Shown piece after piece: positions 3,836 through 31,969 of a stretch of 32,076 nt of DNA. Position 1 is the stretch's first letter. Every line of letters begins with the position of its first letter. The notes beneath the pieces were generated by a model. It was not told where the DNA came from, made no database searches, and saw nothing but the letters and a program-made list of their open reading frames with translations. The stretch comes from an uncultured Clostridia bacterium (GTDB lineage: Bacteria > Bacillota > Clostridia > Christensenellales > CAG-917), in contig CANQZE010000005.1 in assembly GCA_947628255.1 (NCBI GenBank), positions 1 through 32,076 of the forward strand, written 5' to 3'. The translations under genes and the position numbers were made by a program.

Positions 3836-3911
3836 TGGTGGAGACTAGGGGATTCGAACCCCTGACCTATGCATTGCGAACGCATCGCTCTACCAACTGA
3901 GCCAAGCCCCC
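3836..3911 (-). tRNA. tRNA-Ala (anticodon CGC), CCA encoded
   Basis: Cloverleaf GGGGGCT..AGTCTCC acceptor with G3:U70; anticodon loop TTCGCAA; T-arm GGGGTTCGAATCCCC; followed by CCA. Confidence 0.9.
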
Positions 3912-3916
3912 ACGGC

Positions 3917-4004
3917 TGGTGCGGTTAAAGGGACTTGAACCCATATGAACGTATTGCTCACTAGAACCTGAATCTAGCGCGTCTGCCAATTCCGCCATAA
4001 CCGC
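3917..4004 (-). tRNA. tRNA-Leu (anticodon CAG), CCA encoded
   Basis: GCGGTTA/TAACCGC acceptor, anticodon stem CTAGA/TCTAG with loop TTCAGGT, long variable arm, GGGTTCAAGTCCC T-arm. Confidence 0.93.
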
Positions 4005-9297: not shown

Positions 9298-9374
9298 CTG
9301 GGTGTGGCGCAGTTTGGTAGCGCGCATGAATGGGGTTCATGAGGCCGGAAGTTCAAGTCTTCTCACCCAGACCA
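9298..9374 (+). tRNA. tRNA-Pro (anticodon GGG), CCA encoded
   Basis: CTGGGTG/CACCCAG acceptor, GCGC D-stem, CATGA-ATGGGGT-TCATG anticodon arm, GGAAG-TTCAAGT-CTTCT T-arm, ACCA end. Confidence 0.92.
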
Positions 9375-19708: not shown

Positions 19709-20770
19709 TCAATATATCTTTTTCATCTCAGACAGATACGCTTTGAAGAGAGCTTGATATGCGCCGCATTTTTCGACGTCCCTTCTCTCTCGCTTGCAAC
19801 CGCCTCCGCAAAGTTTGAAATACGGACAGGCTTTGCATTTTGCCGAAACGCGAAGGCTTTCGCGGATGAAATTTTTTGCGGCGGGGCAAACGGCGAGCGC
19901 GGAAAAATCCGTGGCGGCGATGTTGCCAAGCTCAAATTCGTCAAGGCAGTAGAAGTCGCAGGGATACACTGTGCCGTCCGCTTCGATGACAAACTGGTGA
20001 GAGCAGAATCCGTTCATCCCGCATTGCTCCGCGCTTTTGCCGTGCGCGAGGCGGACGAAGTTGTCAAACTGCCTGATCGAGATATATTTTCCGTCTTTGA
20101 TGTCCGCGAGGTAGCGAGCGAACAGTTTTTTCAAAAAGACGGCGTATTCCTCTTCGGTCGGGTATGAATCGGGGTCGTAAGGTTGACCGTCGAGAGGCTT
20201 GAGGAAGGGGATAAATTGTAAAAATTTGAAGTCCTGCGCCTTGTAAAAATCGTAGATCTCGTCAATGTTGACGACGACAGAGCGGCTCAGCACGGTGAGG
20301 ACGTTGAAGGGAACGCCGCGCCTTTTCAGCAAGCCTATGCCGCGCATTATGTCGGGAAAGGCGGGCGCGCCGTCTGCCGTGACGCGACAGCGGTTGTTTT
20401 CCTCCGCGCCGTCGAGAGATATCCCGATCAAAAAGTTGTGCTTTTTGAAGATATCGATCCACTCGTCGTCTATCAGCGTGCCGTTTGTCTGTATGACGGC
20501 GGAGACGTTCGGATGAGGCGACACAAGTTTGCCGACGAACTCGAAAAACGCCTTGCCTCGCAAAAGCGGTTCGCCGCCTTGAAATGACAAGTAGAGCCTG
20601 TCCCCATTCGCATAGGAGAGCGCTTTTTTGAAGATATCCTCAAAAAGCGCCTCGCTCATCATTCCCTTGCTGAAGCTCTCGCGCATATTCGCCAAGGAGT
20701 GATAAAAACAATAGGTGCATCTCAGATTGCAATTGCCCGAGGCGGGCTTTAACATCACGGATATGTTCAT
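19709..20770 (-). CDS. Radical SAM/SPASM anaerobic sulfatase-maturating enzyme
   Basis: MLKPASGNCNLRCTYCFYHS, LSFQGGEPLLRG, QTNGTLIDD, C-terminal CGMNGFCSHQFVIEADGTVYPCDFYC and C..C..C SPASM cysteines; adjacent to sulfatase. Confidence 0.95.
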   Translation of the reverse strand: MNISVMLKPASGNCNLRCTYCFYHSLANMRESFSKGMMSEALFEDIFKKALSYANGDRLYLSFQGGEPLLRGKAFFEFVGKLVSPHPNVSAVIQTNGTLIDDEWIDIFKKHNFLIGISLDGAEENNRCRVTADGAPAFPDIMRGIGLLKRRGVPFNVLTVLSRSVVVNIDEIYDFYKAQDFKFLQFIPFLKPLDGQPYDPDSYPTEEEYAVFLKKLFARYLADIKDGKYISIRQFDNFVRLAHGKSAEQCGMNGFCSHQFVIEADGTVYPCDFYCLDEFELGNIAATDFSALAVCPAAKNFIRESLRVSAKCKACPYFKLCGGGCKRERRDVEKCGAYQALFKAYLSEMKKIY

Positions 20771-20773
20771 CGG

Positions 20774-22903
20774 CTATTTGATTATGCCGCGCCTGTTCGT
20801 GCGAAGTTCCTTGCGGAAGGCGAGCAACCTCTCTTTGAGCAGAAGCGCAACGTCGGGGTGCCTCTTCGACAGGTTGTAGCCCTCGATGGGGTCGTCGTCC
20901 AAATCAAAGAGGAAATTTTTGTAGTATTGATCGATGAAGGCGCTGTTCTCGTTGAGGACATTCTGATAATACTTGAAGTCGTGGAGTTCGCCGTCGATCT
21001 CCGCGGGCATTTGCAAACTTTGCACATTGCCTTTTTTGATGTAGTAGAGCGCGCGCATATTGCCTTCGCGGTCGAGGACTTTTGCGTCGGACGGAGTTGC
21101 GGCGGTGAGCGCGCCGAGCATACTGACGCCGTCTATCGTTCTGTCCGTCGGAAGCGGAATACCCATAAATTCGAGCAGAGTGGGGAAGATGTCTATGTTC
21201 ATATAGCTCGACGTGACGCGATATCCGCTTGCCGCCTCGCCATTGGAATTTGTCCAGCCGACTGGATCGTCCGTCGCGAAAGTCCTGCCGTCCGCCGTCC
21301 TGAGATTTTTGCCGATTTTGACGAGCATAGGCACTTTGTGGCCGCCTTCGAACGTCGTGTTTTTGCGCCCTTTCAGTGCGCCCGTCGCGCCTTCCTTGCC
21401 GGGACCGTTGTCCGACGTAAAGATGATTATCGTGTTGTCGGCGACTTCGGGATCGGAATAGATGAGTTCGAGCGTAGTGCCGAGATAGGCGTCAAACTCC
21501 TCGACGCAATCTATGTAGGTGTCGTCCGTGGTATCGCCCTGCACGGCGCCGTCCAAATTTGTTTGCGTCGTGTTGTAGCTTGAAAACAGAGGCGCGTGCG
21601 GCCAAGGAGTGCAATAGTATGAGAAGAAGGGAGTGCCGTTATTCTTGTAATCATCGATCTGGTCTTGTAGGTATTCGTTCATCTTTTCCGTGATGCGCTG
21701 TGTTGATTTGGATTGGTCCTTCATCTCGGCGTGCGAGAACACCTCGTGATATTGTCCGTTTTGCTCCTCGACAAAGTTGTAGGGCGTCATATCGTTGACA
21801 TAGTGGCTGCCGTAAAAATAGTCGAAACCTTGATTTGTTGGCAGATATTCGCCATAGTCGCCCAAATTCCACTTGCCGAACAGCGCGGTGGAGTAGCCTT
21901 GAGTTTTCAAAACTTCCGCGATCGTGATCTCGTCGCCCAAAATGCCGTCCACGTTGTAGAGGAATTGGAAGGGATTGAAATAGCGCGTGTTGCCGAACGG
22001 ATCGAGGGAAACGTTGGAGGGGAACACCACGTTGTCAAGATACCCGCGCGAGCAATATCTGCCCGTCAATATGCCGAAGCGAGACGGAGAACAGACAGGG
22101 GAAGAAGCATAAAAATTGTCGAAAAATACGCCGCCGTTTTCGGCGATCTTGTCTATGTTGGGCGTGAGTATGGACGGCGCCTTGCCCTCGTTGAGCAGGC
22201 TGGAGGAGTTGAGATAGCTGTACATCGAGATGTCCGCGTATCCCATATCGTCCATAAGTATGAACAAAATGTTGGGACGTTTTTGCCCGTTTTTGAGGGC
22301 GGCGAGAGATTCGAGATACTCATCGTGGCCGTCCTTGAGAGACTCGACCGTGGGCGTCGCCTTGAAGCTGCAACACAAAAAGTACAGCACGGTGACTCCA
22401 AGCATCAGCGCCGCGCACAGCGAAGCGACCAATCGTTTTGCCGTAAGTTTTTTGAGGCGTCTCAGGCATAACGCAAACGCCGCGAGCGCGATAGGAATGA
22501 GGGTGAACAACAGAGTATAGCCGAATCTTTCGGCGGCGTTGCCCGCTCCCCAAATGAAAAAGTAGAGCAACAGCGACGCGTCCGACAAGATGAAGCTCGC
22601 CGCCGTCCACACGCTCAAGCGTCCTCTGCACGCGCCGATGAATGTCGCGAGGGCAAACGCCATCGAAAACGCGATCGCGCAGACCGCAAGAAAGTTGAAG
22701 CCCGTCGCGAGCAACGTCAAGGCATATGCCGCCTCAACGCAGAACAGCGCGAAAGATACGCTTTTCAGCTTGTTTTCAATCGTAAATCCGCCCTTCGCGC
22801 GCGAAGCTCCGCTGCGGTTTGAAGCGGTTCCGTCCCCCGCTTCAGCAGAAGGCGCCGCGACGTCCTGTTCGACGGATTGCGATTTTATCTCCATATCATC
22901 CAT
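20774..22903 (-). CDS. Sulfatase with N-terminal multi-TM membrane domain (Cys-type FGly)
   Basis: ~5 hydrophobic segments in first ~190 aa; PNILFILMDDMGYADISMY; FGly motif ASSPVCSPSRFGILTGRY; FTSDNGPGKEG; start revised to MDDMEIKSQS with SD GAGGAG. Confidence 0.93.
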   Translation of the reverse strand: MDDMEIKSQSVEQDVAAPSAEAGDGTASNRSGASRAKGGFTIENKLKSVSFALFCVEAAYALTLLATGFNFLAVCAIAFSMAFALATFIGACRGRLSVWTAASFILSDASLLLYFFIWGAGNAAERFGYTLLFTLIPIALAAFALCLRRLKKLTAKRLVASLCAALMLGVTVLYFLCCSFKATPTVESLKDGHDEYLESLAALKNGQKRPNILFILMDDMGYADISMYSYLNSSSLLNEGKAPSILTPNIDKIAENGGVFFDNFYASSPVCSPSRFGILTGRYCSRGYLDNVVFPSNVSLDPFGNTRYFNPFQFLYNVDGILGDEITIAEVLKTQGYSTALFGKWNLGDYGEYLPTNQGFDYFYGSHYVNDMTPYNFVEEQNGQYHEVFSHAEMKDQSKSTQRITEKMNEYLQDQIDDYKNNGTPFFSYYCTPWPHAPLFSSYNTTQTNLDGAVQGDTTDDTYIDCVEEFDAYLGTTLELIYSDPEVADNTIIIFTSDNGPGKEGATGALKGRKNTTFEGGHKVPMLVKIGKNLRTADGRTFATDDPVGWTNSNGEAASGYRVTSSYMNIDIFPTLLEFMGIPLPTDRTIDGVSMLGALTAATPSDAKVLDREGNMRALYYIKKGNVQSLQMPAEIDGELHDFKYYQNVLNENSAFIDQYYKNFLFDLDDDPIEGYNLSKRHPDVALLLKERLLAFRKELRTNRRGIIK

Positions 22904-23060
22904 AATACTCCTCTCAAAATAGCTAATATAATAAATATACAATAATATGCCGGATTTGGCAAGCGCAACATTTTTGCGGGTTGCCTCGACTGCGCCGGCA
23001 GAGAAAGTCGCGGTTGACGAATCGTGTTTTTTAGAGTACAATTATATCAACGGAGGGCTT

Positions 23061-31173: not shown

Positions 31174-31197
31174 ATGAGCATAGGAGGCGACAAATGA
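31174..31197 (+). CDS. Seven-codon leader ORF (MSIGGDK)
   Basis: AAAAAGGAGATAAAA-ATG AGC ATA GGA GGC GAC AAA TGA; the stop overlaps the next start as ATGA. Confidence 0.4.
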   Translation: MSIGGDK

Positions 31198-31421
31198 AAT
31201 ACCTCGATTTAGTGGAACTGGTTGTAGAAAGGCCGACATATTTGAAAGCAGGAGTAAAACGCGGCGATTTTGGCGCTGTTATGTCAAAAGAGGCTATAGA
31301 CGGCAAATGGCAGGTCGTCTTTTCCGAGTTTTACACCGGCAAAGATATTGCGGATATTATGGTATATGAAAATGATTTGAAGGTATACGACTTTGTTCCT
31401 TTGGACAGATATCCAAAATAA
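31194..31421 (+). CDS. Small uncharacterised protein, DUF4926-like
   Basis: MKYLDLVELVVERPTYLKAGVKRGDFGAVMSKEAIDGKWQVVFSEFYTGKDIADIMVYENDLKVYD; internal GGAGG SD. Confidence 0.6.
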   Translation: MKYLDLVELVVERPTYLKAGVKRGDFGAVMSKEAIDGKWQVVFSEFYTGKDIADIMVYENDLKVYDFVPLDRYPK

Positions 31422-31510
31422 AGTTGCATATTAGGTTTTTTGCTCAACTGCTAAAATAAAAATTTATACAAAGTTTAATATGGATTTATTATAAGAACAC
31501 AAACAGAAAA

Positions 31511-31740
31511 AGTCCTGTCGACAAGCAGATTTTTCTTTAATTTTCGCCCCCTCAGGACTCGAAGGTGGCATTGCCACCCAACGGCTTGTCAAGCCGTTGC
31601 CTGTGACCTGCGGTCACACTGCACTGATTTACCCCATAAAATCGTTCTATATGTTTTCCGTTTCTACAAAGCGATACTTTGTCACTCGTTTCTATGGGGA
31701 ACCCCGTTTCCGCTCAGACGGACCTTGCGGTAGCTCCGCT
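31511..31740. other. Hairpin-dense intergenic region (candidate structured RNA or ssDNA-active element)
   Basis: AGTCCTG/CAGGACT (31511-31559), GGTGGCATTGCCACC (31564-31578), CAACGGCTTGTCAAGCCGTTG (31579-31599), TGTGACCtgcGGTCACA (31602-31618), CCCCAT/ATGGGG enclosing ACAAAG/CTTTGT (31632-31699), GCGG/CCGC (31727-31739). Confidence 0.65.
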
Positions 31741-31969
31741 GTAAGTCGATTTCTGTTGCCTCTGTTGCGCGCGATCCAATTGGAATATAGGTGTCGGATT
31801 TTTTATAACAAGACAGTCGCAATTTTTGAGGTCTTTGCATCGTTATATTGATCTGAATGGGACTTTTCTTCATTGTTTGCAGATTTTTGTATTCGGTTAC
31901 AAAAAGAAAGCAGGGAAGCCTGTTTGCAGCATTTTACTCAATTAAAATGCCTGTTTTGCGATTCCGTAT

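Follow-up and report, generated by a model that had tools for sequence, protein, structure and literature searches.

A hairpin array near a contig end of an uncultured Clostridia bacterium, probably a strayed and decayed tRNA-anchored palindromic repeat

What is the dense array of perfect hairpins that lies near one end of contig C5 of this uncultured Clostridia bacterium, and where does it come from? The window analysed here is the whole contig, 32,076 bases long, and belongs to a fragmented genome assembly of 177 contigs that is 86% complete. The first-pass annotation had described a hairpin array with no coding explanation, and both points hold: every stem that it named is present at its position, and no coding signal was seen over the block. 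The array is real and non-random. On the plus strand, the region 31500–31760 folds at −80.9 kcal/mol compared with −62.1 kcal/mol in shuffles (z −4.31), and on the minus strand at −87.9 compared with −70.8 kcal/mol (z −3.60); on neither strand did any of 200 dinucleotide shuffles reach this stability. An Rfam scan of the window assigned the block to no family at gathering score, and all permissive matches fell far below that score. The features of the region are as follows.

31194–31421, plus strand: 75-aa open reading frame (ORF), upstream of the block and outside it, conserved in the sister genome G017
31505–31540, no strand assigned: terminator region of this ORF, outside the repeat unit; in an alignment to locus L010 it is kept in G017, and identity stops near 31540
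31553–31563, plus strand: left end of the unit, CAGGACTCGAA, the exact reverse complement of TTCGAGTCCTG in the T-loop/T-stem of tRNA-Val(cac)
31564–31578, no strand assigned: hairpin 1, GGTGGCATTGCCACC, read as GGTGGC-ATT-GCCACC
31579–31599, no strand assigned: hairpin 2, CAACGGCTTGTCAAGCCGTTG, read as CAACGGCTTG-T-CAAGCCGTTG, with 10-bp arms and a 1-nt spacer
31602–31618, no strand assigned: hairpin 3, TGTGACCTGCGGTCACA, read as TGTGACC-TGC-GGTCACA and followed by a conserved CACTGCAC
31627–31704, no strand assigned: second dispersed palindromic repeat, TACCCCATAAAAT...CTATGGGG-ACCC, occupying the place of hairpin 4 and identically placed in L004 and L005
31632–31637 and 31694–31699, no strand assigned: CCCCAT/ATGGGG stem
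31666–31671 and 31677–31682, no strand assigned: ACAAAG/CTTTGT stem
31733–31745, plus strand: conserved right-end motif GCTCCGCTGTAAG, which in tRNA-linked units immediately precedes the tail copy
31747–31762, plus strand: eroded direct tail of tRNA-Val(cac), CGATTTCTGTTGCCTC compared with CGAGTCCTGTTGCCTC(CACCA), 14/16 matching, with the terminal CACCA gone

The two ends of the block both point to tRNA-Val(cac). The left end CAGGACTCGAA occurs only once in the window, and its exact 11-mer match was reached by none of 2000 shuffles; L004 and the tRNA-Val(cac) array L213 share this left end. The 14/16 tail match at 31747–31762 was reached by 2 of 2000 shuffles. The block is homologous to L084, L213, L004 and L005, and its nearest tRNA-linked homologues both follow tRNA-Val(cac), namely the units at L084 in genome G015 and at L213 in genome G004. 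Their counterparts of hairpin 1 are GGTGGC-TAT-GCCACC (L084) and GGTGGC-TTT-GCCACC (L213), the L084 counterpart of hairpin 2 is CACGGC-TAC-GCCGTG with both arm sides shortened, and homologues of hairpin 3 carry compensated pairs at positions 5–7 counted from the loop. Our reading, which we grade as probable as a whole, is that 31553–31762 belongs to the tRNA-anchored palindromic repeats, as a unit of the tRNA-Val(cac) type that has strayed from its tRNA and decayed. Against this assignment, no tRNA lies beside the block, and its Val-type tail is eroded and lacks CACCA.

Within the window, tRNA genes are located only at 3839–4004 and 9298–9371, and the contig ends approximately 310–314 bp past the block, the far side of which lies beyond it; as far as can be seen on this contig, the block is an orphan. 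The left flank is collinear with G017 up to 31540, after which a tRNA-Ala array comes next in G017 instead. That genome conserves the ORF, which matches no Pfam family, and its terminator region (as TCCTGC-CGACAA-GCAGGA, with A- and T-runs on either side), while the block at 31553–31762 is absent. This bears on a minus-strand terminator, AGTCCTG...CAGGACTTTTT, that had been proposed to close the array. Both of its arms, AGTCCTG (31511–31517) and CAGGACT (31553–31559), do exist, but they differ in origin: the first lies in the ORF's terminator region, kept in G017 where the block is lacking, and the second represents the unit's anti-tRNA end, which makes the terminator doubtful. Elsewhere in the window (19709–23041, minus strand), a sulfatase gene sits beside a radical SAM/SPASM gene, and the pair resembles a sulfatase and the maturase that serves it.

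When 60 related genomes were searched at the DNA level, pieces of the block turned up in nine, all of them from the genus to which the window belongs, with 16 matches in genome G016. Judged from these matches, the pieces behave as modules: the left-hand pair of hairpins, the inner CCCCAT palindrome and the right end are each also found without the others. Genomes G018 and G017 carry similar modules in tandem repeats directly behind tRNA genes, and it was this arrangement that prompted us to survey the surroundings of tRNA genes. The sequence downstream of each tRNA was searched for a second copy of the tRNA's own 3′ end, allowing up to two mismatches and counting only copies outside full tRNA genes. 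The genus sample comprised 254 tRNA genes with at least 250 nt downstream; it is an incomplete sample, as tRNA positions came from top-scoring lists and neighbourhoods were sampled by stretches.

Between one and three copies of their own tail were found downstream of 46 of the 254 tRNA genes, a count that is a lower bound, since most of the genomes are fragmented metagenome assemblies, and their contigs are prone to end at these repeats. When the tail of another tRNA was used as a control, the corresponding figure was 11/1238. The tail copies span 23 isoacceptors, a figure to which six positive loci in other families of the order contribute. The copied stretch extends from the CGA of the T-loop to CCA, which is the last 21 nt of the tRNA; of 68 copies, 37 are 21 nt long and a further 22 are 23 nt long, comprising the 21 nt, a mismatch and a match. 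The units, single or in tandem and mostly 115–310 bp long, have a regular order: a terminator right after CCA, an inverted copy of the T-arm/acceptor strand, several near-perfect hairpins, and the direct tail copy, which is often preceded by the motifs CTGCACGC and CGCTGTAAG. Exact inverted copies of 7 nt or more of the tail are present at 27/46 loci, compared with 23/254 for foreign tRNAs. The unit hairpins comprise 953 Watson–Crick pairs and 44 mismatches. Tandem copies are often identical, and the same hairpin modules recur behind different tRNAs.

Several variants of this organisation were observed. The units behind tRNA-Asn (L034, L065, L099, L189, L202) form a distinct type conserved across species, with a hairpin like GCAAACGAT-CCGGTGA-ATCGTTTGC and with AAGCCAAGCGGAG ahead of the tail. 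Some larger units (the third unit of L096, tRNA-Arg(acg), and the second of L213, tRNA-Val(cac)) have an extra insert in common, with GAAAAATAGCGAA...TTTTTTG-GCGCGG motifs, that is possibly another small mobile element. The palindrome of approximately 78 bp at 31627–31704 (TACCCCATAAAATTCGTTCCAC...CATTTCTATGGGGACCC) is a dispersed repeat distinct from the tRNA unit. About 20 further copies were found, one elsewhere in the same genome (L002) and many in G016; across the genus, it occupies many intergenic sites (L002, L012–L031, L074–L081) and is sometimes nested inside tRNA units.

When 84,980 species genomes were scanned for a pattern with the motifs CTGCACGC and CGCTGTAAG, 34 stretches were returned, mostly from Clostridia and Christensenellaceae assemblies. 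Many of these lie 73–125 nt behind a tRNA and end in 20–21 of the 21 letters of its tail; the link to tRNAs is partly built into the scan, as its pattern contains CGANTCC, while the tail match beyond CGANTCC is independent. In other families of the order, tail copies were detected at 6 of 142 tRNAs, and among 110 tRNAs from elsewhere in the phylum no genuine copy was found, the only matches being false ones to neighbouring full tRNAs. Within the genus, the number of units at the Ala(tgc)-Ile(gat) operon ranges from zero in G016 and G011, through a single 131-nt unit in G015, to two units of 134 nt in G018. A tRNA-Ile array is likewise present in G018 and absent in G015, where the terminator and anti-tail are found without hairpins, while the downstream flank is collinear and approximately 90% identical. 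Such differing unit numbers at conserved tRNA operons of sister species indicate that units come and go. Many tRNA genes in the genome under study (contigs C39, C45, C69, C117, C135, and others) lie within a few hundred bases of a contig end, as would be expected if repeats behind tRNAs break the assembly.

The closest known likeness is the tandem 178-bp repeats behind tRNA-Tyr at tyrT/tyrV of E. coli K-12 (rttR/RtT RNA, Rfam RF00391). When examined in the same way as the genus units, they contain exact 19-nt copies of the 3′ end of the tRNA and, approximately 57–60 nt after CCA, a piece of the tail in inverted orientation. Both systems thus have repeats in tandem immediately after a tRNA, with its 3′ end copied in each repeat, the window copy being an orphan with an eroded tail. 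The genus units differ in their tRNA-specific tails at 23 isoacceptors and in holding a larger share of perfect hairpins, and the E. coli repeats carry an annotated tpr ORF. The RtT covariance model gave four matches in E. coli and none in the unit-bearing loci. Our literature search, which left most subscription journals outside its reach, returned no description of tRNA-tail repeats as a general phenomenon.

How the units arise and spread could potentially be explained by site-specific insertion. The T-loop is a documented crossover site of tyrosine integrases, whose elements supply a replacement 3′ end and displace the original; islands integrated in this way (the Islander signature) show an intact tRNA, a displaced 3′ fragment and a T-loop junction, with tandem arrays possible (PMC4383910; PMC1762012). 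The genus units have this trait in the form of a tRNA gene and a 21-nt fragment beginning at the T-loop CGA, but they are mostly 115–310 bp long, with no room for a gene and no integrase, and Islander rejects candidates that are shorter than 2 kb or lack an integrase. Insertion at the T-loop would give the constant T-loop/CCA junction, as with tRNA-targeting tyrosine integrases, and the enzyme would act in trans on a mini-element with its own terminator, leaving the tRNA intact. Recombination between the 21-nt direct repeats would then multiply copies, hairpin modules would be swapped between loci, and some copies would be carried off from their tRNA and decay, as may have happened to the window copy; no host function would be required of the units. 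The first-pass annotation had offered the end of an integrative element as an alternative. That suggestion went in the right direction, since the relatives of the block adjoin tRNA 3′ ends and their junction falls in the T-loop, but the units hold no integrase. Integrases are encoded in 18 of 20 genomes of the genus; no integrase or transposase gene was seen inside any unit, and none of the loci checked has an integrase beside a unit. We give insertion in trans slightly less than an even chance.

What this mechanism leaves unexplained is the exact match of each tail to its own tRNA, which a single mobile element would not produce without copying its target, and an origin by duplication or template switching is accordingly possible. 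Replication forks could switch templates at tRNA or terminator hairpins, which would make the inverted tail and perfect the palindromes, and unequal recombination would duplicate the tail together with the hairpins, all without a dedicated enzyme. The palindromic nature of the whole unit, in which tail, terminator and inverted tail form one large palindrome, is in keeping with such an origin, as are the near-perfect pairing of the hairpins, the frequent identity of tandem copies, and the tRNA-Ile locus of G015 with its terminator and anti-tail alone. Local slippage does not, however, predict a single junction at the CGA of the T-loop for 23 isoacceptors in many species, nor hairpin modules common to different tRNAs. 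This enzyme-free origin is possible but on the doubtful side, and it is the single junction together with the modules common to several loci that makes insertion in trans slightly likelier. A broader proposal, which we put forward only as a speculation that is rather unlikely to hold, is that gene-less mini-elements can target nearly every tRNA gene, entering at the T-loop, restoring the tRNA and bringing a terminator of their own; a T-arm-recognising recombinase would mobilise them in trans, and the E. coli tyrT repeats would be a domesticated member of the same group.

A structured non-coding RNA, either processed from tRNA read-through in the manner of RtT or transcribed from a minus-strand promoter of its own, would agree with the low fold energy and the compensated pairs of hairpin 3, and E. 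coli RtT RNA comes from an equivalent position. The compensated pairs are equally expected of DNA palindromes, and RNA helices on the tRNA strand should give more G-T than A-C oppositions. The hairpins of 75 unit bodies gave a GT:AC ratio of 5:12 on that strand, compared with 74:23 for the terminators after the same tRNAs, which served as the positive control (Fisher p 2.9e-4); the lean of the unit hairpins towards the opposite strand (AC 12, GT 5) is not significant (p 0.14). Lacking the G-U excess of the tRNA terminators, the unit hairpins look like DNA-level palindromes rather than sense-strand RNA helices. Their spacers are mostly 2–4 nt long, as expected of hairpins that physically form, while those of shuffles are spread evenly. 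Fold z-scores are equal in sense (−2.5) and antisense (−2.6). An antisense RNA had been considered from a raw energy gap, antisense being lower by 5 kcal/mol, and was rejected when the gap vanished on shuffle normalisation. With the units also sitting behind terminators and matching no Rfam family, an RNA of either strand appears improbable, and the structured minus-strand transcript proposed earlier, ending at AGTCCTG...CAGGACTTTTT, is not supported, given these counts and the first arm belonging to the ORF's terminator region.

Hairpin arrays generally resemble oriT sites, IS200/IS605 ends and REP elements mobilised by RAYTs, the first two of which had been raised by the first-pass annotation, but such an identity is very unlikely here and was rejected: it does not predict tRNA-tail ends, the eight ORFs scanned with Pfam between 19.7 and 31.4 kb include no relaxase, IS200/IS605 (Y1) transposase or recombinase, and Y1_Tnp is patchy, occurring in 4 of 20 genus genomes and absent from the incomplete assembly under study and from the unit-rich G015, G018, G017, and G003. 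The units do share dispersed, near-perfect palindromes with REP/BIME elements and their RAYT transposases, and differ in being anchored to tRNA tails, with the Y1 transposase missing from this assembly and most unit-bearing genomes.

The tyrT repeats of E. coli look like a one-off, and yet approximately one-fifth of the surveyed tRNA genes in a single genus of gut Clostridia carry repeats of similar build with one constant T-loop junction. Island finders drop such units through their length and integrase filters, and, since many of these tRNA genes are located at contig ends, the repeats probably disrupt metagenome assembly and obscure what surrounds the tRNAs. Their presence raises the testable questions of how copies of tRNA 3′ ends are generated and whether a small element that encodes no integrase can land at tRNA genes.
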